From: Phycisphaerales bacterium
GTDB taxonomy: Bacteria > Planctomycetota > Phycisphaerae > Tepidisphaerales > Tepidisphaeraceae
Assembly (NCBI GenBank): GCA_020847545.1
Contig: JADLBV010000032.1
Coordinates: forward strand, 1-50,094
Reading direction: 5' to 3'
Length of the DNA: 50,094 nt
The notes below the pieces were generated by a model. It made no database searches and was not told the DNA's origin. It worked only from the letters and a program-made list of their open reading frames with translations. Positions 15,010-45,925 of the stretch are shown piece by piece (within the stretch, counting starts at the first letter, position 1; each line of letters opens with the position of its first letter). The translations under genes were made by a program, and so were the position numbers.

Positions 15010-16209
15010 CTATCGCGGGCAGGAAGCGATTGTATTCCATAAGGTTGCGACATTGGGGTGGCGGAGGATGAAATCGGCCTCATGGATTACCACAAAATCC
15101 ATGCCGCTGTTGACGACGTGTTGATGCCAGTATGCCTTCACCTGCTCGACCGAGGCGAATTGGCTTGGTTCACCACCATGAGGAGAGAAGATGTCATTCA
15201 ACCATGCGCCAACCTGTTTGCCTTCCTGCCGTACACCATTGTAATAGGGGAACATGAATGATTTCAGGTCGGCAGTCAGTTTTTGGCTGGACCAGTTGGC
15301 CGATTGAAGGCAGCCATCGATCACTCCTTCGGCGGCCAGACGATTGGCATCCAGATAAAATGTCGCCGGCGCAATTTCTTCGATTGCCACCGGGTGGGGG
15401 GGAGTGAATGCGCCCAATGCAATGGTCGGCCTCTTGCCCGACAGGCCGCGGGCTTCGCGCAGGAAAGCTTCAAACCCTTCCCCCTTGATCCAATGCCATA
15501 GTGATCGGTCGAATTGTGCGGCGTTGATGTACTCCACCGAATACACAAATGGAATCCGTTTATAGACGCCCTGATCCACGGTCAAAAATTTCTTGTGATC
15601 GTAGGCACGGATATCGACTCCTGTCCTGGCCGCAAATGCCTCTGCAATCGGTTCATTAAACCCAAAAAAATCGGGCTCCCGATGCGGCGAGGCATAAAAC
15701 GAATGAGATCGCGCCAAGTCGAACAGGATTTCATCGAACCCATAATCCAATTGCTCTTTTAAGAGGCGTAGCTTGTATTCGCGCACCTGCGGGTAATGGT
15801 AGCACGGCCAACCGCGCAAGGGATAAAACCCGCAGCGGCTCTGCCACCACCATTGCGGATGCTGTTCCATAAATTCTTCCGAAAGCTCCGGAAAATAATC
15901 ATCCAGCAGACGGAAATAGAGCATCAACTTCAAATCAAATTCCGCGGCCAGCTTCGCCACCACGTCCAGAACATCGAATTCGCGCATCAACTGGGCGATT
16001 CGTTCCGATCCGCGATGTGTCCGGGAGGGCTTGTGCATCGTGCCGGCCACCTTGCTGGGATAAATGGCCTTGCCACAGACCATCGGCGCAAAGAGCATCG
16101 CCTCAAATCCGGCGTCTTTGGCCTGTGCGAACAGACGTCGCAGCGATTCACGATCGCCGTACCCCGAAAGGCATAAATCCTGATAATCCACATCCATAAC
16201 CAGCCGCAT
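15010..16209 (-). CDS. TIM-barrel glycoside-hydrolase-like protein, function unknown
   Basis: 399 aa. The ATG at 16209 has GAAGGAATC just upstream. Alternating strand/helix segments starting with a strand MRLVMDVDYQDLCLSG and including AGFEAMLFAPMVCGKAI, FDLKLMLYFRLLDDYF, YGFDEILFDLARSHSF and MDFVVIHEADF suggest a (beta/alpha)8 barrel of the 'family 10-like' hydrolase superfamily. Acidic residues at strand ends could be catalytic, but I cannot assign them. No signal peptide, so probably cytoplasmic. Last gene of the minus-strand polysaccharide cluster, 11 nt after the CBM9/DUF4091 gene and so co-transcribed. Convergent with ftsK. The glycan substrate is unknown. Confidence 0.65.
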   Translation of the reverse strand: MRLVMDVDYQDLCLSGYGDRESLRRLFAQAKDAGFEAMLFAPMVCGKAIYPSKVAGTMHKPSRTHRGSERIAQLMREFDVLDVVAKLAAEFDLKLMLYFRLLDDYFPELSEEFMEQHPQWWWQSRCGFYPLRGWPCYHYPQVREYKLRLLKEQLDYGFDEILFDLARSHSFYASPHREPDFFGFNEPIAEAFAARTGVDIRAYDHKKFLTVDQGVYKRIPFVYSVEYINAAQFDRSLWHWIKGEGFEAFLREARGLSGKRPTIALGAFTPPHPVAIEEIAPATFYLDANRLAAEGVIDGCLQSANWSSQKLTADLKSFMFPYYNGVRQEGKQVGAWLNDIFSPHGGEPSQFASVEQVKAYWHQHVVNSGMDFVVIHEADFILRHPNVATLWNTIASCPR

Positions 16210-16220
16210 AATGATTCCTT

Positions 16221-18809
16221 CTACCTGGCCTTTCGGCACAATTGTATCTGACCAATGATCTGACTCCGCACAAGATCCAAATCCAGCAATTCGGACGGGC
16301 CACCCGATTTGAGCTTGTCCAGATATGCCTGAGCCGCATTGGCCGTCGTGGTCTTGCCGCGACGGCGGGCCGCCGCGATTTCGCGGATCAGGGTCGCAAC
16401 ATACCGGGTATCATCCACCCCCTCGCGCCACCCTTCCCACTGAATCGTATCAACCACATTGTTTTTAGTGGCGTAGACCATCATGTGGTCGCGGTAGACC
16501 CGATGGTTGAAATCATCCCAGCCGTTGGGGTTCACGGTCGGGCCAAATTGCCAATACCAACTCCAGTCAAACGATCCATCATAGTCGGCCTGCCAGAGCA
16601 GCAACCCATAATTGCGCCGATACACCTCCGGCCGCTCCACCCCGCCCTGGGGATTGGCATAACAGAACACGCGCTTGCCGGCGGCGTGGATTTTCCTGAC
16701 CAGTTCCGACGCCACCGGCCCGTGTGCGATGTTCGCCAAGTCAATAAATTCCCCGCCGATATCGAAATAATTGGAATAGCACGCCACCCATGTTTTGACT
16801 CCCTGCTGACGGATCGCCTCTGCCAGCGGCCGCTCTGCTTTTAAGACGGCATCGCGGGCTTCATCGATCAGATACAGATAAACCTGGTCGGTTTCCGTAC
16901 CGGCGGATTGGGCGGCCTCTTTCCACAGCCGCGCCATTTCGGCCGCTGATTGCGGTGTGGTCCACTCCAGCGAGATCGTCGAATCGCGATGAGGTTGGAT
17001 ATAGACCTTGTCCGTGGCCATCCCCGCCTTTTTCATCAGCCGCAAGACCTTGGGGAGATTTTCGCGCAGCTCGAACAAACCCACATAATCGACTCCATGG
17101 GCGATCAGGTTGCGCATCTCGGCCAAGGCTCGCCGCTCATCCATGGTTCCCCACATCGTCTGGGCGTACCAGTTGTTTTCCAGTGGGGAACGTTCAAGGG
17201 TAAAATCGAGCACCTGCAACTCGATGGGCAGTTTGGCGATGGGATCATCCCCGCTTTTTACCGTGATCGTTCCTGAGTAAACCCCCGCCTTGGTGCCCGC
17301 GGGCACATGAATGGTCAACCACACTTGCGTGGATGTTTTCGCCTCCACCTGCCGGATCGGCAGCAACGATTTGGAATCATCCCGATACCCCCGCCCAGAC
17401 GGGTCGCCGTTGTAGCCATCCAGCAGGATGTTTTTTTCATGGACGCGATCCACCGTCACCATTTCGGGATTTTTCAAGAGCAGTTCCGGAATCAATACCC
17501 TGCCCACCGGAACAATGTCGCTGTCTCCGGCCTGGTACCAACATTTCACCCATCGAATATCAATCGCCTCGGCCGGCAGAGTGCCGCCATCGCCTTGCAT
17601 TGGGCCAATTTCCACCATGAGGTTTGACACCGGCCGTTCATTCCAGATCACAAAGGAGGCGGCCTCATACTCCTGTGGGCATGCCGCCACCGCCACGGGC
17701 CGGCCGATCGATTCCAGCGACGGCACAGAATCCGGAAAGATGCGCAATTGATCTTTGATCGGTGGATGTGCCCCAATCGCCACCTGGTCTCCCCTCCGCC
17801 GCGCTTTTTGCATCACCGCCAGTGCCTGAATATCGAGTACACCCCGCTCCAGGCGATCCAGTCGGTCGAGGATTGTCCCGCGGGCGATGGAGGCGTATTC
17901 AGTATGTTGCAGTGATGCAAAATCCCGCTTGAAGTTCACCAGATCCTGCCAGCGGTCTTTCATCATGCGGATGATGTGCGGATCGTCCGCCGACTCCATC
18001 TGCCGCAGCGCCGATTCGATTTTTTCCACCCGCGGCCGAATGCGCTGCTGTTCATCCAGCTTCCATCGGATTGTCCGGTCTGAAGGATCGCTCACGAAGA
18101 CCAGGTCACCGAAGTTCTGGTGAAATTTGAACATCCCCTGTGCGGGGAACAATGACCAGTGTGCTCCATCAGCGGACGTGGTACGCCCGAACTGCACGCG
18201 CCACGAGGTCAACTCAGGCGGATTCTTTCGCGTTTCAAAATTTTCAAAGTAGAGCGAGGCGAATGGGATGGCAATCTCCGCTTGCCAGCCCTGTGGCGTA
18301 ACCAATGTTTTGGCTTCCCACTGCCCATCCCACGAGGCCGGCCCGCCCGATCCCAGCTCATCGAACTGATCTCCCGCCGAATTGACGACCAGGTGAAAAT
18401 GCTGGTCATCGGGGGGGCGAGTCTGCATCAAGGTCGTCGTGATGTGTGGCGACAAAAACAATTCCACGCAGTCGTCAAACCAGATTGCTTCATCGCGCAA
18501 GTGTTTGGCGGGGGGTTGTGTCCGTGGCTGCACACATCTGAAGAACAGATAGAGCTTTTGCTGGTCGTAAACGCCACGGACAAAGGTTGGGCTGTCCGAA
18601 CTGATCCTTGCCGAACCAAGCTGGGTAAAACCACCGACTTCCTTGGATTTCTGCCAGCAGGAGTCTTCCATTTTCCCGTCGACAACAGGCCCTTGCTCGA
18701 CATAGGTGACTGGAAATATTCCTGTTTCCGCCAACGCCGGGCGTGCACCAAGGCATATTAAAACAATCGTTACCAGGGCGAACCGCGACATTATTTGTGG
18801 GATATGCAT
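16221..18809 (-). CDS. Secreted CBM9-like and DUF4091-type glycan-active protein
   Basis: 862 aa. Signal peptide (MSRFALVTIVLICLGARPAL, then AE), a CBM9-like beta-sandwich at about residues 30-230 (VDGKMEDSCWQKSKEVGGFT, FDDCVELFL, WQAEIAIPFASLYFE), a helical linker, a beta-rich domain, then a C-terminal DUF4091-like region (about 570-830: QVYLYLIDEARD, RVFCYANPQGGVERPEVYRR, WQADYDGSFDWSWYWQFG, WEGWREGVDDTRYVATL). Proteins of this build occur with carbohydrate-degrading loci and are thought to be outward-facing hydrolases or binding proteins; the substrate cannot be read from sequence. The start is uncertain: ATG at 18809 or 18791, neither with a good ribosome site. It follows the prepilin-like gene after 33 nt. 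Confidence 0.75.
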   Translation of the reverse strand: MHIPQIMSRFALVTIVLICLGARPALAETGIFPVTYVEQGPVVDGKMEDSCWQKSKEVGGFTQLGSARISSDSPTFVRGVYDQQKLYLFFRCVQPRTQPPAKHLRDEAIWFDDCVELFLSPHITTTLMQTRPPDDQHFHLVVNSAGDQFDELGSGGPASWDGQWEAKTLVTPQGWQAEIAIPFASLYFENFETRKNPPELTSWRVQFGRTTSADGAHWSLFPAQGMFKFHQNFGDLVFVSDPSDRTIRWKLDEQQRIRPRVEKIESALRQMESADDPHIIRMMKDRWQDLVNFKRDFASLQHTEYASIARGTILDRLDRLERGVLDIQALAVMQKARRRGDQVAIGAHPPIKDQLRIFPDSVPSLESIGRPVAVAACPQEYEAASFVIWNERPVSNLMVEIGPMQGDGGTLPAEAIDIRWVKCWYQAGDSDIVPVGRVLIPELLLKNPEMVTVDRVHEKNILLDGYNGDPSGRGYRDDSKSLLPIRQVEAKTSTQVWLTIHVPAGTKAGVYSGTITVKSGDDPIAKLPIELQVLDFTLERSPLENNWYAQTMWGTMDERRALAEMRNLIAHGVDYVGLFELRENLPKVLRLMKKAGMATDKVYIQPHRDSTISLEWTTPQSAAEMARLWKEAAQSAGTETDQVYLYLIDEARDAVLKAERPLAEAIRQQGVKTWVACYSNYFDIGGEFIDLANIAHGPVASELVRKIHAAGKRVFCYANPQGGVERPEVYRRNYGLLLWQADYDGSFDWSWYWQFGPTVNPNGWDDFNHRVYRDHMMVYATKNNVVDTIQWEGWREGVDDTRYVATLIREIAAARRRGKTTTANAAQAYLDKLKSGGPSELLDLDLVRSQIIGQIQLCRKAR

Positions 18810-18842
18810 ATCCGAATGAGACAAATGGAGGCGTGGCGGCGA

Positions 18843-19466
18843 TTATTGCACGTTTTCGATCTCGAACATCCGATCCGTCAACTGATTGTACTTGCGTGTC
18901 TCCGCGTGGCCGTCAGGAAAAACCAGATTCACCCCATCCATATGCACACGGTAGACTCCTCCCGCCAGCGCGGCTTCGTTGGCGCCGTACCCATTGTTGT
19001 AATTCCATGCCGCGCCGGGGTTGCCGACCCAGTAACTCGCCCAGTATTGCGAACAGAAAAACCAGTAGGCATCCGCCATCATGATAACGCCACCCTTGAC
19101 TTTGTTGGCGGGTTGGTGATTGAGCCGAAGGTTATAGCCGTAATTCCAACCTTTAATGCCCCAAAGCAAGTATCCCTCCCATGAGGGGCAATGCATCAAT
19201 TTTTCGTTGTTGTTGACGTATTTATTGATGCGAAACCACCAGCCGCCTTCCAAAGATCCGTTGTTATACGGGTAATAGACCGCACGGTTATCGTTCAGAT
19301 ACATGACCGTCGACATTCCCAGTTGATGCAGGTTGCTAAGGCATTGCGTTGTCTGTGCCTGTCGGCGCGCCCGGCTCAGCGCGGGCATCAGGATACTGAT
19401 CAGAAGGGCTATAATGCCGATGACGACCAGCAATTCCACCAATGTAAATGCTTTGCGTCGATTCAT
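18843..19466 (-). CDS. Prepilin-type protein with H-X9-DG C-terminus (cluster 1)
   Basis: 207 aa. N-terminal type IV prepilin/pseudopilin signal: short basic leader MNRRK, then [19 protein letters not shown] with the methylated Phe and conserved Glu5, cleavable by prepilin peptidase. A soluble domain rich in aromatic and Asn residues follows (IKGWNYGYNLRLNHQPANK). Near the C-terminus HMDGVNLVFPDG gives the exact H-X9-DG spacing seen in large planctomycete families. Probably exposed by a type II/IV-pilus-like system. It sits between a PEP-CTERM gene and a secreted glycan enzyme; the equivalent gene in the second cluster is at 43156-44019. Confidence 0.85.
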   Translation of the reverse strand: MNRRKAFTLVELLVVIGIIALLISILMPALSRARRQAQTTQCLSNLHQLGMSTVMYLNDNRAVYYPYNNGSLEGGWWFRINKYVNNNEKLMHCPSWEGYLLWGIKGWNYGYNLRLNHQPANKVKGGVIMMADAYWFFCSQYWASYWVGNPGAAWNYNNGYGANEAALAGGVYRVHMDGVNLVFPDGHAETRKYNQLTDRMFEIENVQ

Positions 19467-19490
19467 ATCAATGTCCTTTCTGCCCCGGCA

Positions 19491-19522
19491 GATCCCTCTC
19501 CCAATACCATGGGAGAGGGATC
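19491..19522 (-). promoter_or_regulatory. Intercistronic hairpin between PEP-CTERM and prepilin-like genes
   Basis: A perfect 13-bp stem (GATCCCTCTCCCA at 19491-19503 with its complement at 19510-19522) and a 6-nt loop. No T-run follows on the minus strand, so it looks more like an mRNA stabiliser or processing site than an intrinsic terminator. Confidence 0.6.
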
Positions 19523-19545
19523 GGTGAAGGTACTTTTCTCAATGC

Positions 19546-20337
19546 TCAAGCCTTCCGTCTCCGGAGCATCAATAAACCACCCGTTGCAAGCAGCCCCAAC
19601 GAAGCCGGCTCCGGAACGGGTGAGTATTCGATCACCAACGTCGGCCGCCAGGCGTCGGTGGCGTTGGCCTTGCCCGCCCAGTTGAGGTTCGCGCTGTTGG
19701 TACCGGATGAGGGTATCACCGCGAAGCCGCGATTCTCAGCACCGCCATACCAGCCGTCCACCAGCGACGTGACATCGAACGACAAATTCTTTCCCGGCAG
19801 ATTTGTCCCATACCCTGCGGTCGAGGCCGAGTCAATCACCGGCTGGCCGGCCATGGTGATCCCGTCGCCCGTGCCGGAGGGCCCGGAGAACGGAGCATCG
19901 CTGGCGTTCCACTTCACTCCGGGACCAGGGCTGGTCTGGGCGTAGTAGAACGAAACCTGACCTTCATTCCACTGCACCGTTGGATCCTTAACCACCCAGG
20001 TCTGCGCACTACCGTTTCCCCATTGAGATCCGTTGGCAAATGTCATCACCAGCGTGGCTGAATTGATGGTCGCCCCGCCTGGCAGGCCGGAAATATCAAA
20101 TCCAACCACCGTGCCCAGGCCTAACCCGCCGAGTGTTGAATAGGCATAAAGATTATCATTTAGATTGTCGTAGGCGTTGGCTTTGCTGGGAGTTTTCATC
20201 TGCGCATCATCGCGCGTACCAGCATATCCATCCAACCCCTCTCGCAACGTCAAAGTCGCCGCGAAGCTGGATGCCGCGCCAAACATCCCCACCGAAACCG
20301 CCGCACAGACCAAAGACCGACTCAAAATCGTAGACAT
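19546..20337 (-). CDS. PEP-CTERM protein, DNRLRE-like beta-sandwich (cluster 1)
   Basis: 263 aa. The ATG at 20337 is preceded by GGAGGAGTT, an excellent ribosome site. Signal peptide (residues 1-25, ending SSFAA), then one DNRLRE-like carbohydrate-binding-type domain: LTLREGLDGYAGTRDDAQ, VVGFDISGLPGGATINSATL, LSFDVTSLVDGWYGG and AWRPTLVIEY. The C-terminus SPVPEPASLGLLATGGLLML, then basic residues, is a textbook PEP-CTERM sorting signal, processed by exosortase and associated with extracellular polysaccharide. First structural gene after the GntR/LacI regulator. Likely a surface or matrix-associated glycan-binding protein; this is inference. Confidence 0.88.
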   Translation of the reverse strand: MSTILSRSLVCAAVSVGMFGAASSFAATLTLREGLDGYAGTRDDAQMKTPSKANAYDNLNDNLYAYSTLGGLGLGTVVGFDISGLPGGATINSATLVMTFANGSQWGNGSAQTWVVKDPTVQWNEGQVSFYYAQTSPGPGVKWNASDAPFSGPSGTGDGITMAGQPVIDSASTAGYGTNLPGKNLSFDVTSLVDGWYGGAENRGFAVIPSSGTNSANLNWAGKANATDAWRPTLVIEYSPVPEPASLGLLATGGLLMLRRRKA

Positions 20338-20424
20338 AACTCCTCCAGAAAGTGATAGAAAATTTGTGAATACCATTTCAATAGACGACTCAAAACAACA
20401 TGCAATTACGGAATTTGAAGTTCG

Positions 20425-21558
20425 TTATATTCCCTCCATTGAAAAACCCGGCGGGCAGGACGAACCCCGCACGATCAGTTCCGGAGCAACCCGTTGTTGC
20501 AGCCGTGCTTCCGGGCGTCCTTCAAGGTGGTCCAGGATTGTTTCGAAAAGCCGACGAACGGCCGTGTCGATTGGCTGACGGACCACCGTCACCGGTGGTT
20601 CATAGACCCTCGATTCCAGCACATCATCGTAGGAAATAAGGCTGATATCCGCTGGCACCCGCTTGCCCAGCAGGTCCAAGGCCACCTTGACCGGTGACAG
20701 CCAGTTGCCATCGCCCACGAAGATCGCGGTGGGGGGGGTGTCGCATTGCATCCATTGCGTCACCACGGATCGGATCGGGCCATATTCCGTCTCAGTATGC
20801 TGGACCATCCGATCCGACCAGATGCACCCCGCCTGGCGCATAACCGCCATGAACGCATCCTGGCGCAACCTGGAATGGCCGTTTCGATATTGATATTCCG
20901 TTGGCACCAGCATCGCTATCCGTCGGTGCCCAAGGTGCAACAGATAGCGCGTCCCCTGACGCACCCCATCCACATCATCCACAAAAACCTGCGGGATCGT
21001 TTTGCTGGACAATTCGGCCGCCAGCGCCACGATCAAGCGATCCCCCTTGCCAAGCATCTCCAGAAACCCTCGACATTGGCGGGAAAAGGGCATAATGACA
21101 CTGGCGTCGGCACGCACCTGACGCAACATTTCGCGGTCAACGTCCTCCTGGCCCGTAAAGTCCGCCAGACGACAGTCGATCCGGAATGGCCGACGCATCA
21201 ACTGGGAATGCATCTCGATACGTTGCAGGAAATTGGTTGCGTATTCATTGGCATAAAGCTTGTTGGTGTTGTCGATGATGACATCGATCACAACGGGCGT
21301 CCGGCCAACGTGCCGCTCTTCCCGCTCCCTCACCATGGTTCCCTTGCCGGCGATCTTGATGACCAATCCCTCTTCCGCCAGCCGGGCCAGCATCTCGCGT
21401 ACCGCCCACCGGCTGATGCCGTGTTGCTGGGCGATTTCCTTCTCGCTGGGCAGCATTGAACCGGCTGTATTGTGATTTTCCTTGATTTGCTTTTGGAACT
21501 GAGCCAGAAGCTCCCCGTATACCGCGTTTGTGTTGGAGATGGGTTTAATGTTGGCCAT
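20425..21558 (-). CDS. Transcriptional regulator, GntR HTH with LacI-type sensor (AraR-like)
   Basis: 377 aa. N-terminal winged helix of GntR type (about residues 15-78: MLPSEKEIAQQHGISRWAVR, then AEEGLVIKIAGKGTMV) fused to a LacI/periplasmic-binding-protein-like effector domain (about 90-360: PQVFVDDVDGVRQGTRYLLH, HRRIAMLV, ISLISYDDVLESR, TVVRQPIDTAVRRLFE). This is the AraR architecture: a sugar releases the repressor from DNA. It leads the minus-strand cluster ending at 15010. An AraR-like palindrome sits inside its own promoter, suggesting autorepression. The -10 is only 9 nt before the ATG, so the mRNA would be almost leaderless. The effector sugar is unknown. Confidence 0.88.
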   Translation of the reverse strand: MANIKPISNTNAVYGELLAQFQKQIKENHNTAGSMLPSEKEIAQQHGISRWAVREMLARLAEEGLVIKIAGKGTMVREREERHVGRTPVVIDVIIDNTNKLYANEYATNFLQRIEMHSQLMRRPFRIDCRLADFTGQEDVDREMLRQVRADASVIMPFSRQCRGFLEMLGKGDRLIVALAAELSSKTIPQVFVDDVDGVRQGTRYLLHLGHRRIAMLVPTEYQYRNGHSRLRQDAFMAVMRQAGCIWSDRMVQHTETEYGPIRSVVTQWMQCDTPPTAIFVGDGNWLSPVKVALDLLGKRVPADISLISYDDVLESRVYEPPVTVVRQPIDTAVRRLFETILDHLEGRPEARLQQRVAPELIVRGSSCPPGFSMEGI

Positions 21559-21567
21559 TACAGATCA

Positions 21568-21595
21568 AATATACACACATGTACGGACATGTCAA
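21568..21595 (-). promoter_or_regulatory. Promoter with embedded AraR-like operator
   Basis: On the minus strand TTGACA (21595-21590), a 16-nt spacer and TATATT (21573-21568). The near-palindrome ACATGTACGGACATGT (21577-21592, 7 of 8 pairs) spans the spacer and part of the -35, so a bound repressor would block polymerase. The core resembles the TGTACGTACA-type core of AraR sites. Confidence 0.65.
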
Positions 21596-21698
21596 GAGGA
21601 ATATAGTATAAAATAGACGATATGTAAATTTTAAGATAGAACCTGTCCGAATATGTGGACGATGGCATGGTGAGCCAAATGCCCGTAAACTTCACGTC

Positions 21699-22466
21699 AT
21701 GGAGCATGTTGAAGGCCGGGAATCGGTTTTGGCCGCGTTGGGGGCGTTTCAGCGGCGGTTTCAGGTCATATTGATTCGTCACGGCATACATCAGGAGAAG
21801 ATCCAGGACATTTTGGATCTGGCGGCCGAGCGAAATGTGCCGGTGCAAATCGTCGATTCGACACAATTAAATGATCTTGCTCATGGTTCCTCCCACGGCG
21901 GGGTGTTGGCGATCTGTTCGCCCAAGCCGCGAACGACGCCGGATGAGCTGTTTGAACAGTTGCGACAATTGAGCCGTCCACCCTTGCTGTTGTTGCTGGA
22001 AGGGGTTGATGATGCCCGGAATCTGGGGTTTACGTTGCGAACGGCCGAGGCGTTGGGCGTCCATGCGGTGATGATCAAGCGGCATTTGTGGGACTTTGAT
22101 CCGGTTGAAGTCGCCCGGCCTGCATCGGGAGCATATGAACGCCTGCCGCTGGTGCAGGTGGATGATGTGAAAGTGATAGAGGAGCTTCAACGGATGGGGT
22201 TGCGGCTGTTTGGCTGTGTCGCGGGGGCCAAACGGACGATGTACGATGTCGATCTGACCGGTGGCACGATCATCGCCATCGGCGGCGAAAAACGGGGCCT
22301 CAGCGGGGCGGTTCGGTCAATCTGCGACAGGTTGATCACCATTCCCACGGCCGGCGGGGCAAGCTCGCTGTCATTGACCCACGCCGCCGCGATTGTGCTG
22401 GGCGAGGTGTTTCGCCAGCGGCGATTCAAGTCGCTTCACGATGCCGAACAAGTTGCTCAAGAATGA
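21699..22466 (+). CDS. TrmH/SpoU-family RNA 2'-O-methyltransferase (RlmB-like)
   Basis: 255 aa. An N-terminal substrate-binding domain (GRESVLAALGAFQRRF, HGSSHGGVLA) precedes a SPOUT/trefoil-knot domain with the three SpoU motifs: GVDDARNLGFTLRTAEALG, IIAIGGEKRGLSGAVRSICD and IPTAGGASSLSLTHAAAIVL. Members methylate ribose 2'-OH in rRNA or tRNA using SAM; RlmB-type enzymes target 23S rRNA G2251. The exact target cannot be read here. The last 10 bp overlap the convergent ceramidase-like gene. Confidence 0.87.
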   Translation: MEHVEGRESVLAALGAFQRRFQVILIRHGIHQEKIQDILDLAAERNVPVQIVDSTQLNDLAHGSSHGGVLAICSPKPRTTPDELFEQLRQLSRPPLLLLLEGVDDARNLGFTLRTAEALGVHAVMIKRHLWDFDPVEVARPASGAYERLPLVQVDDVKVIEELQRMGLRLFGCVAGAKRTMYDVDLTGGTIIAIGGEKRGLSGAVRSICDRLITIPTAGGASSLSLTHAAAIVLGEVFRQRRFKSLHDAEQVAQE

Positions 22467-38794: not shown

Positions 38795-39630
38795 TTGTTG
38801 TGTCCTTTGCCGGTTTTGGTCCAACGCGCATCCATCGGGTGCGACGCGGGTTGATAACGCACATCGCAACTGAGGCGGTATCGATGCGTGATGTTGGTGG
38901 TTGAGGCGTGCAGGGTGTACATGCCGAAGATCATCACATCGCCGGCGGAGAAATCGGCCGTGCGCCATTGGCCGCCGAATTTTTGCGTGACTTCCAGCGG
39001 GTCGGATGTGAACCAACCATCAATGCCGTCGCGATCGACATCGCCGCGGCCATAGGTGTTGCGCAGCGGCGCGAAACTGTCGAGCCGGTGCGAACCGACA
39101 CAGACCGCGAGCGTGCCGAGTTCCACCGGGATATCACCCATCGGGATCCAGGTCGTGTGCAGGCGACTCGACCCCAGGCCCATGTACACCACATCGTAAT
39201 GGGCGCCGGTGTATTCCTCGTTGCCGACGGCGCGCAGCCATTTGTAGGGAAAGGTGACGGCGGGTTCGTTGAAATAACCGGCGAAGAACTCGAACAGCGA
39301 CGGCGATTCAACGGCCGCCAGCACATCGGGATGATGTGCGATCCCGGCACGCCCTTTCAGGTTGACCGATTTGCCGCCGCGGGTCATCACCCCTTCCAGC
39401 ACACTCTCTCCAGGTGCCAGGGCCGCTTGTTGGTCCAGATATTGAAGAACGGTGGTGCGCGCGGTGGATACCCTGGCGGGATCGATCAGTTGGCGAAACC
39501 AGAGATATCCATCTTCTCCCATGCGTTGATGAATGGCCGTCCAGTCACCCAGCAACGCGTTGGAGTCGCGCAGTTCGCCAAGGTCCGCGCCGCCTCGCTC
39601 GAATGTGCGCGTGCCGAATTTCACCTGCAT
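38791..39630 (-). CDS. Phytanoyl-CoA dioxygenase (PhyH) family protein
   Basis: 279 aa. Fe(II)/2-oxoglutarate oxygenase fold. The metal triad is partly visible: HYD in TGAHYDVVYMG and a distal His in FGMYTLHASTTN, with Arg in ITHRYRLSCDVRYQPAS for 2-oxoglutarate. The middle region GTLAVCVGSHRLDSF fits the family. The substrate is unknown; planctomycetes carry many such genes near carbohydrate regulators. Co-transcribed with the URO-D-like gene and divergent from an AraC regulator 117 nt away. Confidence 0.87.
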   Translation of the reverse strand: MQVKFGTRTFERGGADLGELRDSNALLGDWTAIHQRMGEDGYLWFRQLIDPARVSTARTTVLQYLDQQAALAPGESVLEGVMTRGGKSVNLKGRAGIAHHPDVLAAVESPSLFEFFAGYFNEPAVTFPYKWLRAVGNEEYTGAHYDVVYMGLGSSRLHTTWIPMGDIPVELGTLAVCVGSHRLDSFAPLRNTYGRGDVDRDGIDGWFTSDPLEVTQKFGGQWRTADFSAGDVMIFGMYTLHASTTNITHRYRLSCDVRYQPASHPMDARWTKTGKGHNK

Positions 39631-39711
39631 GATATTTTCCCTACATGAATAAATAGCGTTAAATCTCGAATCGACATATGTACATTATATCGCAGTAAAT
39701 ACGACTAAAAA

Positions 39712-39740
39712 TTGTAAAACTGATCAAAGAGTTGTATATT
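39712..39740 (+). promoter_or_regulatory. Promoter of the AraC gene, predicted leaderless
   Basis: TTGTAA (39712-39717), a 17-nt spacer and TATATT (39735-39740), with only 7 nt before the ATG at 39748. On the other strand a TATAAT (39689-39684) points toward the phyH gene. The AT-rich gap also holds TGATC/GATCA arms flanking the -10. Confidence 0.5.
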
Positions 39741-39747
39741 TCGATCA

Positions 39748-40635
39748 ATGCCGCGACAGATGGAACCAAGCAGTGTGGTTGTGGATCGATTGACGGACCC
39801 ACATTTTCAAAACTGTCCGCTTGGGTCGATTCTGGTGACGGGGTGCAACTATGCCGCGCGTAAACCGATCACCTCCATGCGGGCACTTGGTCGTTACGCG
39901 CTGGCCTATGTGATGGAGGGAAGGGGAAAATATGTCGATGAAGCGGGCTGCCGCTGTGCGTTGTCGGCGGGGGATCTGATTCTGGTCTTTCCAGACCTGG
40001 CGCACCGATACGGCCCGGCGCCGCTCTGGTCGGAGCAATTTATAGTATTCGACGGCCCGATTTTTCGCGCCTGGGAAAGTGCGGGGATCCTCGATCGCTC
40101 GCATCCGGTTGTGCGGCTGGGAACATCCACCAACTGGCTGGAGCGCATTCTCTGGGTCACGGCGGCCGGTGTTCCCACAAACGAATCGGCGGCGCTTCGC
40201 GAACTGTGCCGGCTTCAGGACCTGCTGGCCGAAATGCTCGCCGGCAACCCCACCTGGCAGCGAGGCTCAAAAGATAACTTCATCGAACAGGCCCGCGCAA
40301 CACTGGAACAGATGACACCATCGCAACGGGGCCTGCCGGCCATCGCCGATGATTTTGGCATGAGCCAGTCCACCTTTCGCCGAAAATTCCGTGACGCCGT
40401 CGGCATGTCCCCCAATCAATACCGCCTGCAAAGCATGATTCGTCATGCCCAGACGCTGATGCTCGAAGCGGAATTGAGCGACAAACAGATCGCGAGCAAA
40501 CTTGGTTTTTCAGATCCATCTCACCTGTCAAGGCGATTCAAACAGCAGGTCGGCCTCAGCCCACGACAGTACCGTCGAACGTGCGAACGCAATGAAGGAA
40601 CAAATGGGATCATTTCAACAACGATACGACGTTGA
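39748..40635 (+). CDS. AraC/XylS-family transcriptional regulator
   Basis: 295 aa. N-terminal cupin-like sensor domain (about 15-105: LAYVMEGRGKYVDEAGCRCA, LSAGDLILVFPDLAHRYGP). C-terminal double HTH (about 190-285): AIADDFGMSQSTFRRKFRDA, VGMSPNQYRLQSMIRHAQTL, KQIASKLGFSDPSHLSRRFK and VGLSPRQYRR. It probably controls the divergent phyH/URO-D-like pair in response to a sugar or related metabolite. No ribosome site is visible before the ATG, fitting the predicted leaderless transcript. Confidence 0.9.
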   Translation: MPRQMEPSSVVVDRLTDPHFQNCPLGSILVTGCNYAARKPITSMRALGRYALAYVMEGRGKYVDEAGCRCALSAGDLILVFPDLAHRYGPAPLWSEQFIVFDGPIFRAWESAGILDRSHPVVRLGTSTNWLERILWVTAAGVPTNESAALRELCRLQDLLAEMLAGNPTWQRGSKDNFIEQARATLEQMTPSQRGLPAIADDFGMSQSTFRRKFRDAVGMSPNQYRLQSMIRHAQTLMLEAELSDKQIASKLGFSDPSHLSRRFKQQVGLSPRQYRRTCERNEGTNGIISTTIRR

Positions 40636-40676
40636 CAAAGATATCATGGTTCACGGCACCCCAACCTGCCTTGGGA

Positions 40677-43052
40677 TTATGGGGAAGAAGGTCCCATCAC
40701 TGCACTGCTGTAAACATTGGCGGCCTCGGTTTTGCCGTCGGGACGTTTGATGTGGGAGGAACCGTTCACATTGGATCCGCCGGCTGATATGGTGCGAAGG
40801 ACCGCTGCGGCGGGATCTTGTTCCAGGTACAGAATGCACCTGTTCGTAAAACCATTATAGTAGGTGGAGATTCCTCCTTCGATGTACACGGTTCCGTCGC
40901 TCGAACGGTTGTACACATTGCACATTCCACTGCTTTCACCTCCGAAGCGGGTGTCCAGCACATAGAACTGTCCCCAGTTGTCGTACCAACGCGTCTGGCG
41001 GCTGTAGGGCCACTTATCTTTAGCCTCAGGAGGGGTGTTGTTGTAGCGGCTGCCAACCCAGAGCTTGGGGACGCCGAGCATTGCCTCAACGCGCATCGCT
41101 CCGCCGCGATTTTCAAAGGCCGCCTGATCGTCAAGGCGGGGGTCGCTGCTGATCCAGATGTCATCCAGTTGAGTCCGCGACGCATTGGTGACCATCCCCT
41201 GAGTGCTGCCAAACTGGCCGACGGCGAAGAGGACTTCGGTTTGATTGTGGTTGTCCATCGTGCCGTCACCAGCCAGGCATTCAATTCCCACCATGGAATC
41301 GTAAAGACGGCAATTTTCAAATGCAATGCGCGCTTTGGCATCCACCTTTGTCCGGATGCGGACGCCGCGATCGCCCCCCACCCATTGACAGTTCTTGAAC
41401 CCCACAGAGAGCGGGTCGTCTATGCTGAAGACGATTCGATTCGTTGTATTCTGTTTGAAAACTGCCGTTCCCGCGCCGCATATGACCACCTCCGCGGGAA
41501 TCCGAATGGTGTCGGATACCTCGTATATCCGGCCGGGGAGGATAACCAGACATTTACCTTTCTTTCCAGCCATGTCCAATACCTTTTGGATCTCGCGTGT
41601 CATGTCCGCATGAGGATCTCGCTCGGGCGGCAAATAATCGGCCGCATCGAGCGTTGATGTGGTCTGATGGATCAGATCGTCCCAATTCCAAGCCAATCGC
41701 GGCACATGTGTTTTCTGGAGGATGTTGTCCGGAATGGGTTTTGCCTGAAATGATTCCATTTCGTCCGGCAAATTGAGAATGATATTGTCGCTGTTGCTTG
41801 AAAACTGAATCTTGTACTCATCGCCCAGTTTCGCAATGCCTCCGGCGGTTGTGTGAAAATCCTTCAGGTTGGCCAGAGCGGATGGATCCTCCCATGAAAA
41901 AACGTTGACGGGCTTTGCTGATGTCTCCGTGACATGGGTCATGGAGAAAATGGGCGGATGGATTCCCTTTTGCAGCCAGACGATGGCGTTGTCCGGACAG
42001 CCGGCCGTGGTCAGACGACAGTTGTCGATAATGACCGAGAACCATTCCCATGTCGTCATCGGTTCGTTGAATGAGCGGAGAAACCCGATGCCGTCGCCGC
42101 TTTGGGTCATAAACTCGCTGTCACGGATGGAAAGTATGCCGCCATCCTTGATCCAGTATGGATGTTTTCCGATGGCCGGGTTGGCCTGGGCCTTGATGTT
42201 GTAAAGATGGTTTTCGCCGCCGAAGGGGAAGGTGAAGATCGGTCCATCGGCCTGAGCGGATGCGTTGACGATGCAATTCCGCATCTGAAACCCGTCACAA
42301 TCGGAAGATACCGCGCCGATATTGTTTATGAATCGGCAGTTGGCGATCGTCATCTGCGTGGAATTGTTCCAATAGCCAAGATGGTCTGCGTTGTTTGGCG
42401 TGAGGATGGGTGTGTCCTTGTTCCATGTCAGGGTGTAGGGGGCCCATGGTTTGGAATTGACCCAGTTTTCACCCTCCAATCTCTGCTTGGTGAATGAACG
42501 GCACTCCACGGCGTTTTCGCCGGCATCTGCGAAGCTGCAATGTTCAATAATGATCTGCGAGGCGTCGATGTTGTTGGTCCAGATTTTAAGCTGCGTGGAG
42601 CCTCCTTTGAATTGCATCCCCTGAATGTGCGTCTGACGGGTGGAATGGAAATAGAAAATTTCCTTTGAAGGATCGTTCTGTTGCACGATGGCCTGCCCAA
42701 AGCCACGCACTGATGCGTACATCTCAAAGACGATGGGGCTCGAGATCAAATAGGTTCCGGGGGGGAAAACGACCTGTGAATAGGCGCGCGTGCCGATGCC
42801 GCCGAAGGATTGACCGAATTTCCGAACCCTCAAGCCGCGGCCGGAATAATCGCGGGTAAAGGCGTTGACGGCCGCCTGGATGGCCGCTGTATCATCCGTG
42901 CGACCATCTCCTTTGGCGCCGAAGTTGCGGACATTAAACACCCCGGGCGGGATTGGCGGTTCGGCCGCCGGAGCGGGCATGGACATGACGACCGACATGA
43001 ACAGGAACAGTCCGGCCACGATCTTGGTCATGTGGTTCTTATTGATTGTCAT
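40677..43052 (-). CDS. Secreted pectate-lyase-3-type beta-helix protein (cluster 2)
   Basis: 791 aa. Signal peptide (to about residue 32, ending PAPAAE), then a Pectate_lyase_3/rhamnogalacturonase-like beta-helix beginning VRNFGAKGDGRTDDTAAIQA, with VVFPPGTYLISSPIVF. A second copy of the opening occurs around residue 465 (MTREIQKVLDMAGKKGKCLV, ILPGRIYEVSDTIRIP), so the protein holds two beta-helix units. Right-handed helix strands with Asn-rich turns continue between. Likely a lyase or hydrolase on a uronic-acid polysaccharide. The start is uncertain (43052 or 43031), with no clear ribosome site. It follows the prepilin-like gene after 103 nt. Confidence 0.83.
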   Translation of the reverse strand: MTINKNHMTKIVAGLFLFMSVVMSMPAPAAEPPIPPGVFNVRNFGAKGDGRTDDTAAIQAAVNAFTRDYSGRGLRVRKFGQSFGGIGTRAYSQVVFPPGTYLISSPIVFEMYASVRGFGQAIVQQNDPSKEIFYFHSTRQTHIQGMQFKGGSTQLKIWTNNIDASQIIIEHCSFADAGENAVECRSFTKQRLEGENWVNSKPWAPYTLTWNKDTPILTPNNADHLGYWNNSTQMTIANCRFINNIGAVSSDCDGFQMRNCIVNASAQADGPIFTFPFGGENHLYNIKAQANPAIGKHPYWIKDGGILSIRDSEFMTQSGDGIGFLRSFNEPMTTWEWFSVIIDNCRLTTAGCPDNAIVWLQKGIHPPIFSMTHVTETSAKPVNVFSWEDPSALANLKDFHTTAGGIAKLGDEYKIQFSSNSDNIILNLPDEMESFQAKPIPDNILQKTHVPRLAWNWDDLIHQTTSTLDAADYLPPERDPHADMTREIQKVLDMAGKKGKCLVILPGRIYEVSDTIRIPAEVVICGAGTAVFKQNTTNRIVFSIDDPLSVGFKNCQWVGGDRGVRIRTKVDAKARIAFENCRLYDSMVGIECLAGDGTMDNHNQTEVLFAVGQFGSTQGMVTNASRTQLDDIWISSDPRLDDQAAFENRGGAMRVEAMLGVPKLWVGSRYNNTPPEAKDKWPYSRQTRWYDNWGQFYVLDTRFGGESSGMCNVYNRSSDGTVYIEGGISTYYNGFTNRCILYLEQDPAAAVLRTISAGGSNVNGSSHIKRPDGKTEAANVYSSAVMGPSSP

Positions 43053-43155
43053 CTTTGTTGGGGTAAAGGGGTTAAAAGTTGCGATGATCACCGATGAGCA
43101 CGCATCGGTATTAACCAGGGCGGAACGTACATGCCGGCCAACCGCTTATGACCGT

Positions 43156-44019
43156 TCATGGAACAAAAAACTGCGGTCCGGGGTTGTATTCCTGGGCCTG
43201 CTTGGCCAGTTCGACGCGCCACAGGTTTCTGGGTTGAACGGTTTGCTTCCAGTTCATGGCATCCACATGCCCGTCCGCGAAGGCCCAGTTGCAGATGCCC
43301 CGACCATTGGATCGGTTGTGGTATCCCTGTTTGCCCATGTCGAGGGCGGCCGGCGTATTTACGCCTGTTGCGTAGCCATAGCTGCTGCTCTGAATGTAGA
43401 CGGTGACGGGGGAGTAGCCGCCATAGCCCCAAACGCCTGCGCTGTAATCCACGCCAAATGGGCCAAGCCATTCCCAGTTTTCGACCAGCAGAATCGTCGT
43501 CGACGGCGATGGTATCTGCGACATTTTCCGAGTCCCCGCGTTGGTGGAAGCGCCGGTGACGGTATAGGAGGGATTCTGCGGCGTGTAGACATCGCTCACG
43601 AAACCATTGACGCAGTAGCTGCTGCGTCCCCCTTCGCGATACGTTTCATAGACTGGATTTCGTGGAAGATCATCCGATGGGCAGTGCAGCACGGAATCTT
43701 CGTACCACTGCGAGGCATAAGGATTCATCGGGTCATACTTCAATCCCAGTTGCGGGGCCATCAATGAAAAGAAGGTGACCCTCCGAAGTGGATCATTTGG
43801 GCCTGATCCGCGGTCATAAGCATAGGGCAACTGACCGTTGTTTTCGGCCGAGTACATGTGGGCGGCCATGGCGACCTGCCGCATGTTGCTGGCGCAGGCG
43901 ACGGTCTTTGCCGCCTCTCTGGCCGCATTCAGTGCCGGTAGCAGCATTGCCACCAGAATGCTTATGATTCCTATGACGACCAGCAACTCAACCAACGTAA
44001 ACGCGGTTTTGGGTTTCAT
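43156..44019 (-). CDS. Prepilin-type protein of DG-C-terminus family (cluster 2)
   Basis: 287 aa. MKPKT leader followed by [20 protein letters not shown], the type IV prepilin N-terminus with Glu5. A long soluble part carries [20 protein letters not shown] and a C-terminal segment [19 protein letters not shown], the DG-type signature of the family (the residue ten before DG is Gly here, not His). The ATG at 44019 is chosen (GCGAGG upstream) over an in-frame start 14 codons earlier. It lies between the PEP-CTERM gene and the beta-helix enzyme and corresponds to the gene at 18843-19466 in cluster 1. Confidence 0.85.
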
Positions 44020-44047
44020 GGCTGCCTCGCATATTTGCCATGGAGCT

Positions 44048-44094
44048 TGTCGGGTAGCCACAGGTCACGGCATTGCGCGACCTGTGACACTCGA
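44048..44094 (-). promoter_or_regulatory. Intercistronic hairpin between PEP-CTERM and prepilin-like genes (cluster 2)
   Basis: CACAGGTC (44059-44066) pairs perfectly with GACCTGTG (44079-44086). The arms extend imperfectly outward to GTCG/CGAC. No T-run follows on the minus strand. It occupies the same place as the hairpin at 19491-19522 in cluster 1, although the sequences differ. Confidence 0.5.
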
Positions 44095-44110
44095 CTTGTA
44101 AAAACGATCC

Positions 44111-44866
44111 CTATTTTCTGTGCCGCGCCGCCAGCGCGCCGGCACCGCCAAGGATGAACAAGGCGCTGGTGGCCGGTTCGGGGACGACCGTGGTCACGGT
44201 CAACAAAGGCCTATAGGCGGCGGTGGTGGTATTGGAATTATAAAACCGGACATAAAGGTTGTTTCCTGACGCGGCTTCGGCGTTGGGGGCGATGAGGATC
44301 AGATTCAAAATTCCATTGTTGTTATCGAGCGCATCCTGTGCAGCGGCCACAAATTGAGCTGATGTGATGAATGTGTCCGCCGAGTTATTTGCGGCACTCT
44401 GCGTAACCGAGGTCAGTACGGTGGAGGAATAATCCCCACCCGCGGTGGTCCATGGGGTTCCGGTGGCGGAATTGTTCCAGGAAGCTTGCGTCCCATTGAA
44501 TCCATGCGTAAGAGCATGAATCTCCAGGAGCTTGTTCGTTGTGCTTGTACTCGAAAAATTGGTGTCCAACATCTTGGTCAGGTCCAAAGTGACCGACTGA
44601 ATGGTTTCGCCACCGCTTAAACCGCCGGTCGCCTTCAGATCAAAGGAGATGACCGAGCGAGTTGGTAAAGCTGAATAGCGCCCCGCATCCAACCCATTGG
44701 TTCCACCAGAATAATTGGTGGTGGCAGATGCAGCCCGGATTTCGGTCGCGGGAACATCGTATGGGTTTGTGGGGCTGACGTTTTCCTGATATTGGATCGT
44801 CGCCGCCGATGCGGAAACAACAAGTCCGGCGACTGTCGCAGCCGCCAATAACGCCACATACTTCAT
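44111..44866 (-). CDS. PEP-CTERM protein, DNRLRE-like (cluster 2)
   Basis: 251 aa. Signal peptide to about residue 21 (VVSASAAT), then a beta-rich domain with RSVISFDLKATGGLSGGETI, QSVTLDLTKM, ASWNNSATGTPWTTAGGDYS and AAYRPLLTV, the pattern of DNRLRE-type domains. Ends VVPEPATSALFILGGAGALA, then RHRK, a PEP-CTERM sorting signal. It starts 9 nt after the LacI regulator stop, so the two share a transcript. Probably exported and processed by exosortase, with a glycan-matrix role inferred. Confidence 0.87.
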   Translation of the reverse strand: MKYVALLAAATVAGLVVSASAATIQYQENVSPTNPYDVPATEIRAASATTNYSGGTNGLDAGRYSALPTRSVISFDLKATGGLSGGETIQSVTLDLTKMLDTNFSSTSTTNKLLEIHALTHGFNGTQASWNNSATGTPWTTAGGDYSSTVLTSVTQSAANNSADTFITSAQFVAAAQDALDNNNGILNLILIAPNAEAASGNNLYVRFYNSNTTTAAYRPLLTVTTVVPEPATSALFILGGAGALAARHRK

Positions 44867-44875
44867 GGTAGCCTC

Positions 44876-45925
44876 CTATAAAAACGTGCAATTATTTGTG
44901 GTGTCCTCGACGGATACACCCGCCGATTCTCGCCACGCAAATTTCATGTGAACGGTCTGCCGCCGTGGGGGCAGATCGGGATTTTCCAGCCGACTGAAGA
45001 GCATTTGGCTGATTGTTTCGACCAATTGATTATGGGCGCGATCGATGCTCGCCAGCGGCGGCCTACAGAGCGTGCTCAGTTCAATGTTGTTCCAGCCGAT
45101 GATGGCCACATCCTCCGGCACGCGAATCTGGCGATCATGGAAGAAACGCAATGCCGCCATAGCCGAATGATCCGCTCCGCAAAACAGCGCATCAATGTCG
45201 ATGCCATCCTTGAAATGCGATTCATAGGCGAGCTGACAACTTTCCACGAATGGCGATATTGACTTAAAAGGACGCAAATCCACCACGGACCGCTCGTCGC
45301 TTTCCATGCCATTCGCTTCGCAGCAGCGGAGAAAATAATTGATCTTGCTACGCTGTGAGGGGTCGTCTGGAAGAACAATCGCGGCACGCCGTCTTCCCGT
45401 CCGAGCCAGATACTCCACCGTTTCTTCAATTGCCTGATAGCGGTCATGGACGACCATGTCATATCGAACGGCATTCGCCGGATCGGGAGTCACCGCCACG
45501 ACGCCCCTGAATGGTTTTAAGTCGTCGCTCAAATTCAAGAGCATTTCACAACTGCACCAGAGCAGCACGGCATCAACGCGTCGGTCGGCGTACCCATTCA
45601 GAATCCGCCGCATCAGGGAGACATCGTGATGATCCTCCTCATCCTGAAAGATGATGTATCCCATGCGCCGGGCCTGCTCCATCACCTTCATGCTTACATC
45701 CACATCACCCGTGATGCCTCGCATGGGCCAGATCGTTCCGATGGACATGCTTTTTCCCCCACGAAGCGCTTTGCTGAGGAAATTGGGGCGATACCCCAAG
45801 CGTCTGGCGGCCGATTCAACTTTTTCCCGTGAAGTTTGGCTGTACCCCGCCTTGCCCCGAAGCACTTCAGCCACGGTCGTTCGGGCCAGCCCAGTTTCAC
45901 GCGAAATATCCAGAATTGTTGCCAT
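44876..45925 (-). CDS. LacI-family transcriptional regulator
   Basis: 349 aa. N-terminal HTH ATILDISRETGLARTTVAEV, hinge region RRLGYRPNFLSKALRGGKS, then the periplasmic-binding-like domain (YDMVVHDRYQAIEETVEYLA, RRAAIVLPDDPSQRSKINYF, DALFCGADHSAMAALRFF, VAIIGWNNIELSTLCRPPLA, SIDRAHNQLVETISQML). Senses a sugar and controls the following PEP-CTERM/prepilin/lyase genes. The ATG at 45925 is chosen; codons up to 45964 lie inside the promoter. The perfect palindrome CGTATCGATACG abuts the start codon, so autoregulation is likely. Confidence 0.92.
   Translation of the reverse strand: MATILDISRETGLARTTVAEVLRGKAGYSQTSREKVESAARRLGYRPNFLSKALRGGKSMSIGTIWPMRGITGDVDVSMKVMEQARRMGYIIFQDEEDHHDVSLMRRILNGYADRRVDAVLLWCSCEMLLNLSDDLKPFRGVVAVTPDPANAVRYDMVVHDRYQAIEETVEYLARTGRRRAAIVLPDDPSQRSKINYFLRCCEANGMESDERSVVDLRPFKSISPFVESCQLAYESHFKDGIDIDALFCGADHSAMAALRFFHDRQIRVPEDVAIIGWNNIELSTLCRPPLASIDRAHNQLVETISQMLFSRLENPDLPPRRQTVHMKFAWRESAGVSVEDTTNNCTFL

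Follow-up and report, generated by a model that had tools for sequence, protein, structure and literature searches.

Putative operons of sugar sensor, PEP-CTERM protein, prepilin and large enzyme, with a hairpin behind the PEP-CTERM gene, recur in the genome of a Phycisphaerales bacterium

The stretch of DNA considered here (the window) is the whole of contig JADLBV010000032.1, 50,094 nt long, from the 3.75-Mb draft genome of a Phycisphaerales bacterium (GCA_020847545.1; Planctomycetota, family Tepidisphaeraceae). It carries two gene clusters on its minus strand, cluster 1 (21558 to 15010) and cluster 2 (45925 to 40677), each of which places a regulator with a LacI-type sensor, a PEP-CTERM protein, a prepilin and a large enzyme in the same order. 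An earlier note had read this order from the letters and saw in it a modular glycan-utilisation system of planctomycetes; order, families and coordinates hold in both clusters, and the present analysis concerns the recurrence of such modules, the hairpin that follows the PEP-CTERM gene, and what the modules might do.

The two regulators belong to different families, as had been proposed: that of cluster 1 (20425..21558) joins a GntR helix-turn-helix (HTH; 50.6 bits) to a LacI-type Peripla_BP_3 sensor (95.2 bits), that of cluster 2 (44876..45925, with the ATG at 45925 in an open reading frame starting at 45964) a LacI HTH to Peripla_BP_3. The PEP-CTERM protein of cluster 1 (19546..20376; the true start may be the ATG at 20337) reaches 59.3 bits for DNRLRE (cut-off 34) and 23.1 for the PEP-CTERM signal (cut-off 16), its counterpart in cluster 2 (44111..44866) 54.5 and 23.0; CBM96 is matched (Pfam) in the former only. 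Past the stop codon of this gene, by 23 nt in cluster 1 and 22 nt in cluster 2, there begins a hairpin without a U-tract (minus strand; 19491..19522, 13-bp stem, z −3.0, and 44057..44088, z −4.3), the stems of the two measuring 13 to 15 bp. Both prepilins score above the N_methyl cut-off. The one of cluster 1 (18843..19466) has no DUF1559 match at E 0.1 (Pfam), yet an exact H-X9-DG can be read from its sequence close to the C-terminus; the one of cluster 2 (43156..44019, ATG at 44019) matches DUF1559 with 29.3 bits (cut-off 23.3), stays below the cut-off of TIGR04294 (16.5 against 19) and spaces its H...DG by 14 residues, not 9. The enzymes, too, are of different families, a GH123-N-type protein (16221..18824; Glyco_hydro_123_N_2, E 2.2e-10) and a pectate-lyase-like protein (40677..43091; Pect-lyase_RHGA_epim, E 2.3e-19), both with a signal-peptide-like start; the CBM9 ascribed to the former is not found there (Pfam, E 0.1). 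A fifth and last gene of cluster 1 (15010..16239, minus strand) has no significant family, a DUF4015 (putative glycosyl hydrolase) match reaching only E 0.019. The clusters are not recent duplicates of each other, again as proposed: normalised scores between them are 0.049 for the regulators, 0.056 for the PEP-CTERM proteins, 0.041 for the pilins and 0.010 for the enzymes, for each part about the median of all module pairs.

Clusters 1 and 2 belong to a set of 48 prepilin/PEP-CTERM pairs carried by this genome (G000), which holds 79 N_methyl prepilins, 60 Peripla_BP_3 matches, 105 PEP-CTERM signals (E 0.05) and 10 DNRLRE domains. By position, a same-strand PEP-CTERM gene ends no more than 600 nt upstream of 33 of the 79 prepilins (0.66 expected under uniform placement; antisense 0) and lies within 2.2 kb downstream of 12 further ones (2.4 expected); a same-strand Peripla_BP_3 regulator is found within 2.8 kb upstream of 33 (1.8 expected; downstream control 2), a divergent one beside 8, and PEP-CTERM gene and regulator together, from positions alone, at 34. 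Counting by called genes, where one prepilin without a called gene is dropped, pairs 48 of 78 prepilins with a PEP-CTERM gene (32 directly upstream, 16 up to two genes downstream); a Peripla_BP_3 regulator stands within three genes of 38 of these modules (30 same-strand, 8 divergent), and 42 of the 48 have a downstream same-strand gene of at least 300 aa. Variants place the prepilin ahead of the PEP-CTERM gene or turn the regulator round; the PEP-CTERM gene precedes the pilin in 34 of 49 G000 modules and follows it in 15. The same picture is given by a second genome of the genus (G001), with a PEP-CTERM gene upstream of 19 of 68 prepilins (0.44 expected) and downstream of 9, a same-strand regulator at 25 (1.1 expected) and both at 20. 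The earlier note had proposed a comparison of the PEP-CTERM-prepilin pairing with chance; the pairing lies far above it in both congeneric genomes, and the modular system is therefore real.

Outside the genus the linkage is rare. In a genome of another genus of the family (G011; PEP-CTERM signals at E 0.01, best 150 of 154) a PEP-CTERM gene lies upstream of at least 4 of 52 prepilins and downstream of at least 3, a same-strand regulator at 5 and both at no fewer than 3. A wider sample took 60 pilin loci from eight relatives together with 80 named loci, with pilins drawn from the best-scoring 150 and those near a locus end excluded; its PEP-CTERM and regulator profiles were built from the window's genome, and distant relatives may be under-counted. 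In 44 loci of six other genera (G005, G006, G009, G014, G019 and G020; 70 scored pilins) two pilins have a PEP-CTERM gene upstream and one downstream, five a same-strand and two a divergent regulator, and none has both partners; at the 80 named loci (63 scored pilins) two have a PEP-CTERM neighbour (1 upstream, 1 downstream), three a divergent regulator and none a same-strand one. Genome by genome, an upstream PEP-CTERM gene was found for 3/7 pilins in G001, 0/9 in G005, 0/9 in G006, 1/16 in G009, 1/8 in G011, 0/11 in G014 (1 downstream), 0/12 in G019, 1/13 in G020 and 1/63 at the named loci (1 downstream); same-strand regulators number 4 in G001, 2 in G006, 3 in G009, 1 in G011 and 0 elsewhere, divergent ones 2 in G001, 2 in G009 and 3 at the named loci. 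A gene-based recount with the same profiles gave 3/48 pilins with a PEP-CTERM gene and 7/48 with a regulator in seven other relatives, and 2/76 and 4/76 at the named loci. PEP-CTERM genes as such occur in 31 of 31 genomes (7 to 93 each), and it is therefore the linkage, not the parts, that is distinctive of the genus: the module type is a genus-level expansion and, within what was sampled, is concentrated in a single genus. The system is modular, as the earlier note had it; generality across the phylum is unsupported, sampled pilins outside the genus rarely having either neighbour by profiles that may under-count them.

A GC-rich hairpin, in most cases lacking a U-tract, stands behind the majority of PEP-CTERM genes. 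Folding was called strong at z below −2 over the 75 nt past a stop codon, gene classes of more than 70 being sampled; by this measure 72 of 113 PEP-CTERM genes are followed by strong folding versus 39 of 489 other scored genes (pilins 6/119, regulators 6/82, others 27/288). Where a pilin gene comes next the counts are 22/34 in G000 and 14/18 in G001, and among three such junctions read in other genera strong folding is seen at L208 and missing at L106 and L232. Three other gaps of the clusters show no such folding (cluster 1 regulator to PEP-CTERM gene and both pilin-to-enzyme gaps, z 0.3 to 0.7; in cluster 2 regulator and PEP-CTERM gene lie 9 nt apart), and Rfam finds no family in the window at its gathering threshold. 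The median stem of hairpins picked by stem score is 14 bp long, and about one third of the next 10 nt are T. Six orthologous hairpin pairs of the two congeneric species, picked by eye for alignability, hold 83 stem pairs, of which 63 are unchanged, 8 changed compatibly on one side, 6 compensated on both and 6 broken; 14 of the 20 changed pairs still pair.

A classical intrinsic terminator was considered and rejected for most of these hairpins because T-tracts are few: at least five T within the 10 nt that follow occur in only 3 of 21 PEP-CTERM-to-pilin hairpins in G000 and 3 of 14 in G001, compared with 3 of 6 after convergent PEP-CTERM genes; weak termination would still be allowed. Two stand-alone G000 PEP-CTERM genes (L275, L279) carry a hairpin with a clear T-tract, unlike most operon-internal ones. 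A parallel is offered by Ruminiclostridium, where stem-loops low in U and with long GC stems are described as raising the binding-protein transcripts of ABC importers (PMC9045158); since a stem-loop without its tail failed to terminate there and the window hairpins have a single T in the next 10 nt, 3'-end protection is the likelier effect. With these stem-loops, and with those of cellulosome cip-cel RNA processing (PMC4423207), the module hairpins share the long GC-rich stem, the few U and the place behind a surface or binding-protein gene, and, co-transcription being presumed, they would likewise be stable stem-loops inside an operon after a gene predicted to be expressed at a higher level; they differ in phylum and operon content.

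Promoter-like sites were scored in G000 and G001 loci as at least 10 of 12 hexamer positions no more than 150 nt upstream, identical proteins being counted once (overlapping loci may double a few genes). In front of the cluster 1 regulator lies TTGACA-16-TATATT (21568..21595, minus strand; 11/12), the best site within a 7-kb region, and a near-perfect palindrome, ACATGTCCGTACATGT (21577-21592), takes in the −35 hexamer at its 3' end and the greater part of the spacer; in cluster 2 the best site, TTGACA-17-TATCGT (45964-45936, minus strand; 10/12), overlaps a perfect 14-bp palindrome, TCGTATCGATACGA (45926-45939), immediately 5' of the regulator ATG. The score of either palindrome was reached in none of 60 shuffles. 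Promoter-like sites precede 40 of 73 module regulators (shuffles 5%), 16 of them at 11/12 or better, and 7 of 16 PEP-CTERM or pilin genes divergent from the regulator; behind the regulator they are found for 0/32 PEP-CTERM genes after a same-strand regulator, 0/53 pilins after a PEP-CTERM gene and 1/88 unlabelled genes after a pilin. For comparison, other divergent genes have 10/141, other same-strand genes 8/380 and regulators without a nearby pilin 1/6. Palindromes overlapping a promoter are what an autoregulating repressor would show, which makes both putative operators; with promoters before the regulators and almost none behind, each module is therefore probably one autoregulated operon, and co-regulation of its genes, on which the earlier note had staked its proposal, is supported by promoter placement. 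In both clusters (21558-21600, 45925-45964) only 9 to 10 nt separate the −10 hexamer from the regulator ATG, and the regulator messages may therefore be nearly leaderless. The short spacing looks alike at the module regulators L260, L059, L251 and L001.

How the parts evolve can be seen between the two congeneric species, for which 38 G001 pilins were sampled from loci mostly selected for a PEP-CTERM or regulator neighbour. For twenty-one of them a G000 pilin is the reciprocal partner, with a further module part also in common or no further part available for comparison; the median normalised similarity in these orthologous modules is 0.89 for the pilin (21), 0.87 for the regulator (17), 0.83 for the enzyme (15) and 0.64 for the PEP-CTERM protein (15). 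The last falls below the pilin in 12 of 15 modules (Wilcoxon p 0.002) and is the lowest of the four parts in 8 of 11. It is unrelated in two: in L183/L025 (0.03) at the same place in an identical gene order, in L244/L016 (0.04) at different places. The L266/L001 modules diverge in the regulator instead (0.13), and the regulator, PEP-CTERM protein, pilin and enzyme of L239 (G001) best match four different G000 modules. Among sampled G001 pilins with a PEP-CTERM partner 9 of 31 lack a G000 counterpart above 0.3, and neither window pilin has a counterpart in the sampled G001 loci. Parts are exchanged between modules, the PEP-CTERM part most, which is both the fastest-changing and a replaceable one. 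The idea of a fixed PEP-CTERM and pilin pair with interchangeable sensor and enzyme therefore has to be given up: between the two species regulator, pilin and enzyme are usually kept, unlike the PEP-CTERM protein.

Nor is DNRLRE a shared part, as the earlier note had supposed. The 48 module PEP-CTERM proteins match DNRLRE in 8 cases, Laminin_G_3 in 8, Disaggr_repeat in 3, CBM96 in 2 and Kelch, F5_F8 and amylase in one each, and the tallies revealed no further common domain. DNRLRE and Laminin_G_3 count as carbohydrate-binding or lectin-like, in keeping with a glycan-binding role; a hydrophobic N-terminal stretch is present, by a crude measure, in 44 of 49. Of the 48 module pilins 47 match N_methyl and 40 DUF1559; their first cysteine and histidine are invariant, and their second cysteine (Cys-Pro) and Asp-Gly nearly so. 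In alignments of module and named-locus prepilins (A3 and A4; window 43156-44019) C42 is invariant and C113, of the Cys-Pro, conserved to at least 90%; a conserved disulfide between the two is possible. The first downstream genes of at least 300 aa (42 proteins, 38 families) have carbohydrate-active families among them and include DUF4838 (6), GH42 trimerisation (3), F5_F8 (3) and GH123, CBM9, Beta_helix and heparinase II/III (2 each). Later genes of 100–700 aa (82 scanned of 87 collected, five truncated by locus ends being excluded) comprise amidohydrolases, BNR, MocA, PfkB, SSF and MFS transporters, GH1, GH130 and housekeeping genes. For sorting and assembly G000 encodes two exosortases (143 bits, and 106.6 bits with neighbours in frame; cut-off 105.55), at L015 five other prepilins next to a secretin, PilM, PilN and a T2SSB-like protein that misses its cut-off, and at L058 two T2SSE ATPases and a T2SSF, read as PilB, PilT and PilC. 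A search confined to SusD (PF07980), whose Bacteroides control was positive, found none in three of three genomes.

The modules resemble the SusCD-type polysaccharide utilisation loci (PUL) of Bacteroidota in that each unit holds a sensor regulator, a surface-type protein (a location suggested by the PEP-CTERM signal) and glycan enzymes, and in that many such units, differing between species, exist; they differ in their LacI or GntR-LacI type regulator and in having, in place of SusC and SusD, a DUF1559 pilin and an exosortase-type protein. We class them as a variant of the glycan-utilisation operon separate from the SusCD type. Prepilin-type proteins in repeated gene cassettes are also found in a related phylum, as the Verru_Chthon cassette prepilins (TIGR02596-TIGR02599), from which the window pilins differ in scoring 24.7 and 28.6 bits on TIGR02596 (cut-off 70). 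In other planctomycetes gold-labelled dextran is reported to bind pili-like fibres (PMC5394234), and a role as "fishing rods" has been suggested for pili made of dedicated pilin-like proteins (PMC12078418); common to these accounts and to the modules are pilin-like proteins that might catch whole polysaccharides for periplasmic uptake, with the difference that the fibres were seen by microscopy in other organisms, whereas the modules are known as genes and tie the pilin to a sensor, a surface protein and an enzyme. DUF1559 (SBP_bac_10) or H-X9-DG prepilins are numerous elsewhere, with 74 given for R. baltica and 68 for P. limnophila (PMC2754498, PMC10632474); outside the genus the sensor and PEP-CTERM neighbourhood, judging from the named loci, is rare. 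The sorted proteins fit the PEP-CTERM/exosortase system (PMC1569441) in their C-terminal VPEP signal, hydrophobic stretch and basic tail and in the exosortase of the genome, and depart from it in sitting in sugar-sensor operons with pilins. A search of open-licence PMC papers found none combining PEP-CTERM, prepilin, LacI and planctomycete, none joining DUF1559 to prepilin and none with the assembled operon type and its hairpin, which does not imply absence from print.

The architecture read from the sequence, a LacI-type sensor first after a near-consensus sigma-70-like promoter, then the PEP-CTERM gene, the hairpin, the DUF1559-type prepilin and usually a large enzyme, is almost certainly that of an operon. 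The regulator would repress its own promoter until a breakdown sugar releases it, and the hairpin would lift the PEP-CTERM message above those of pilin and enzyme, whether it shields the 3' end of that message or causes weak premature termination, on the model of the binding-protein genes of ABC importers; autorepression and hairpin effect together appear quite likely. The PEP-CTERM protein might then be an abundant surface binder of glycans that adapts fastest to the substrate, and the prepilin might be processed and assembled, by pilus machinery that the modules share, into a pseudopilus or fibre moving polymer or enzyme across the outer membrane, a capture role that we put forward tentatively, at a little short of even. 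The enzyme, and transporters encoded elsewhere, would do the rest, with PEP-CTERM protein and pilin standing in for SusD and SusC. Taken as a whole, the interpretation of the modules as substrate-specific glycan-capture operons, PUL-like and without SusD, is evenly poised. A bolder form of it would have each operon build a glycan-specific fibre, a DUF1559 pseudopilus with a hairpin-set excess of exosortase-anchored receptor reeling one polysaccharide into the periplasm, in about 40 sets under about 40 sensors, the receptors being swapped between species and sensor, pilin and enzyme kept; this we consider unlikely.

Several observations weigh against the capture reading. Sixteen of the 52 PEP-CTERM-to-pilin junctions lack strong folding (12/34 and 4/18), as does L106, a DNRLRE module from a different genus; strong folding is also seen behind 4 of 12 stand-alone PEP-CTERM genes sampled from G000 (G011: 0 of 8), and the hairpin is therefore not exclusive to modules. 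The 75-nt windows can enter the pilin gene, where 2 of 21 listed G000 hairpins lie (L027, L039), and 8 of 14 orthologous PEP-CTERM 3' regions could not be counted, being unalignable or without a clear hairpin in one or both species. Palindromes (p 0.05 or less) are found in 8 of 48 regulator upstream regions, 4 of 38 regulator-to-first-gene gaps and 0 of 13 divergent gaps; across all modules they are only modestly enriched. A Peripla_BP_3 regulator is missing within three genes of 10 of the 48 modules, four of which have a GntR-like neighbour by eye. The models of both window pilins show a confident N-terminal helix and a poor head (mean pLDDT 68.1 and 72.0) that has no fold match at E 0.001 or better, and searching solved structures by profile gave matches to pilins and GspG that cover nothing but the N-terminal part; glycan binding by the pilin is for these reasons conjectural, and from its sequence the pilin could as well move enzyme or act as glue as catch polymer. 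Many later genes are housekeeping or mixed, and substrates are therefore not readable from them; in R. baltica, some DUF1559 genes show a response to salt, cold or heat (PMC2754498), as would not be expected of a feeding role.

Among the alternatives, the prepilin might serve as a minor pseudopilin by which each operon's enzyme is brought to a shared type II secretion system, the PEP-CTERM protein being an independent surface anchor or matrix protein and no polymer being pulled in. Orthologous modules indeed keep pilin and enzyme, core secretion and pilus genes exist with five other prepilins beside them, and in the 12 pairs of G000 modules with paralogous enzymes (above 0.15) the pilins are raised in similarity (median 0.15 vs a background of 0.058) and the PEP-CTERM proteins are not (0.054 vs 0.044; only 4 pairs have one on both sides). 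The pilin-enzyme signal is, however, a weak Pearson one (0.25 over 51 modules); by rank, the correlation turns negative (−0.155; PEP-CTERM-enzyme −0.143), so the former rests on a few related pairs. The PEP-CTERM gene, moreover, comes after the pilin in 15 of 49 modules. To our knowledge type II secretion usually needs no pseudopilin of its own per substrate, which also counts against this reading, and we regard it as doubtful, if one to be reckoned with. Adhesion would assign both surface proteins to substrate-specific glue on polysaccharide surfaces, with the co-expressed enzyme degrading outside the cell; PEP-CTERM proteins have been linked to exopolysaccharide genes and surface life (PMC1569441), the flocculation-associated PepA model is matched by 12 of 48 module PEP-CTERM proteins (E 0.001), probably via the sorting signal, and rapid change and replacement of this protein would fit surface specificity. 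As adhesion alone leaves unexplained both the sugar sensor that most modules own and the hairpin between two surface proteins, it seems rather improbable.

That joint function is absent altogether and co-location reflects descent, one ancestral regulator-PEP-CTERM-pilin operon having spread in the genus, agrees with the concentration of the pattern in one genus and with the 21 reciprocal pilin pairs between the two species. Modules, however, share almost no sequence (median normalised scores between parts 0.01 to 0.06) and come in two gene orders, and the four parts of L239 point to four modules, which argues that the combination is kept or re-made; hairpin stems, too, change partly with compensation, and such an amplified family is very improbable. 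Phage or predators might instead drive the swapping of PEP-CTERM proteins to evade recognition, with sugar sensors choosing the coat, an idea for which the low conservation of this protein in fully compared modules and its replacement in L183/L025 speak; adjacent degradative enzymes and carbohydrate-binding domains fit feeding better, and it is hardly credible. The glycan-capture reading is the one we prefer.

Several neighbours of the clusters deserve mention. A BD-FAE-type esterase gene (46021..46842, plus strand) runs divergently to the regulator of cluster 2; between the two lies the palindrome, and the esterase gene is possibly under the same putative operator. On the other side, cluster 2 is adjoined by URO-D-like and PhyH-like genes in a row and an AraC-type regulator (37700-39630, minus strand, and 39748-40635, plus strand). 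Upstream of cluster 1 a GntR/FCD regulator (25971-26927, minus strand) shows two separate GntR-type HTH stretches in a single open reading frame and heads an apparent sugar-acid cluster (22457-25877) with a mandelate-racemase-type enzyme, an SDR and a below-cut-off ceramidase match.

Planctomycetes bind and internalise large polysaccharides by an uptake system described as still to be characterised (PMC5394234, PMC12078418), and according to a 2024 survey planctomycete CAZyme clusters are, to its authors' knowledge, functionally uncharacterised (PMC11131199); DUF1559 proteins are given as the largest paralogue group of P. limnophila, of unknown function (PMC10632474), and earlier work placed the domain with the solute-binding proteins (PMC2754498). 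Against this background the operons offer combinations of sensor, candidate surface receptor, pilin and enzyme that lend themselves to testing, with the clean prediction that the PEP-CTERM message exceeds the pilin message by way of the hairpin. If the glycan-capture reading is true, part of the DUF1559 pilin family would gain a function and a SusD-free glycan-utilisation system would be defined; should each operon even build its own fibre, this would be a gene-level answer to how planctomycetes without SusCD take up whole polysaccharides. Dozens of such small operons lie in the genome, and they may possibly be the missing genes behind the capture of large sugar polymers.

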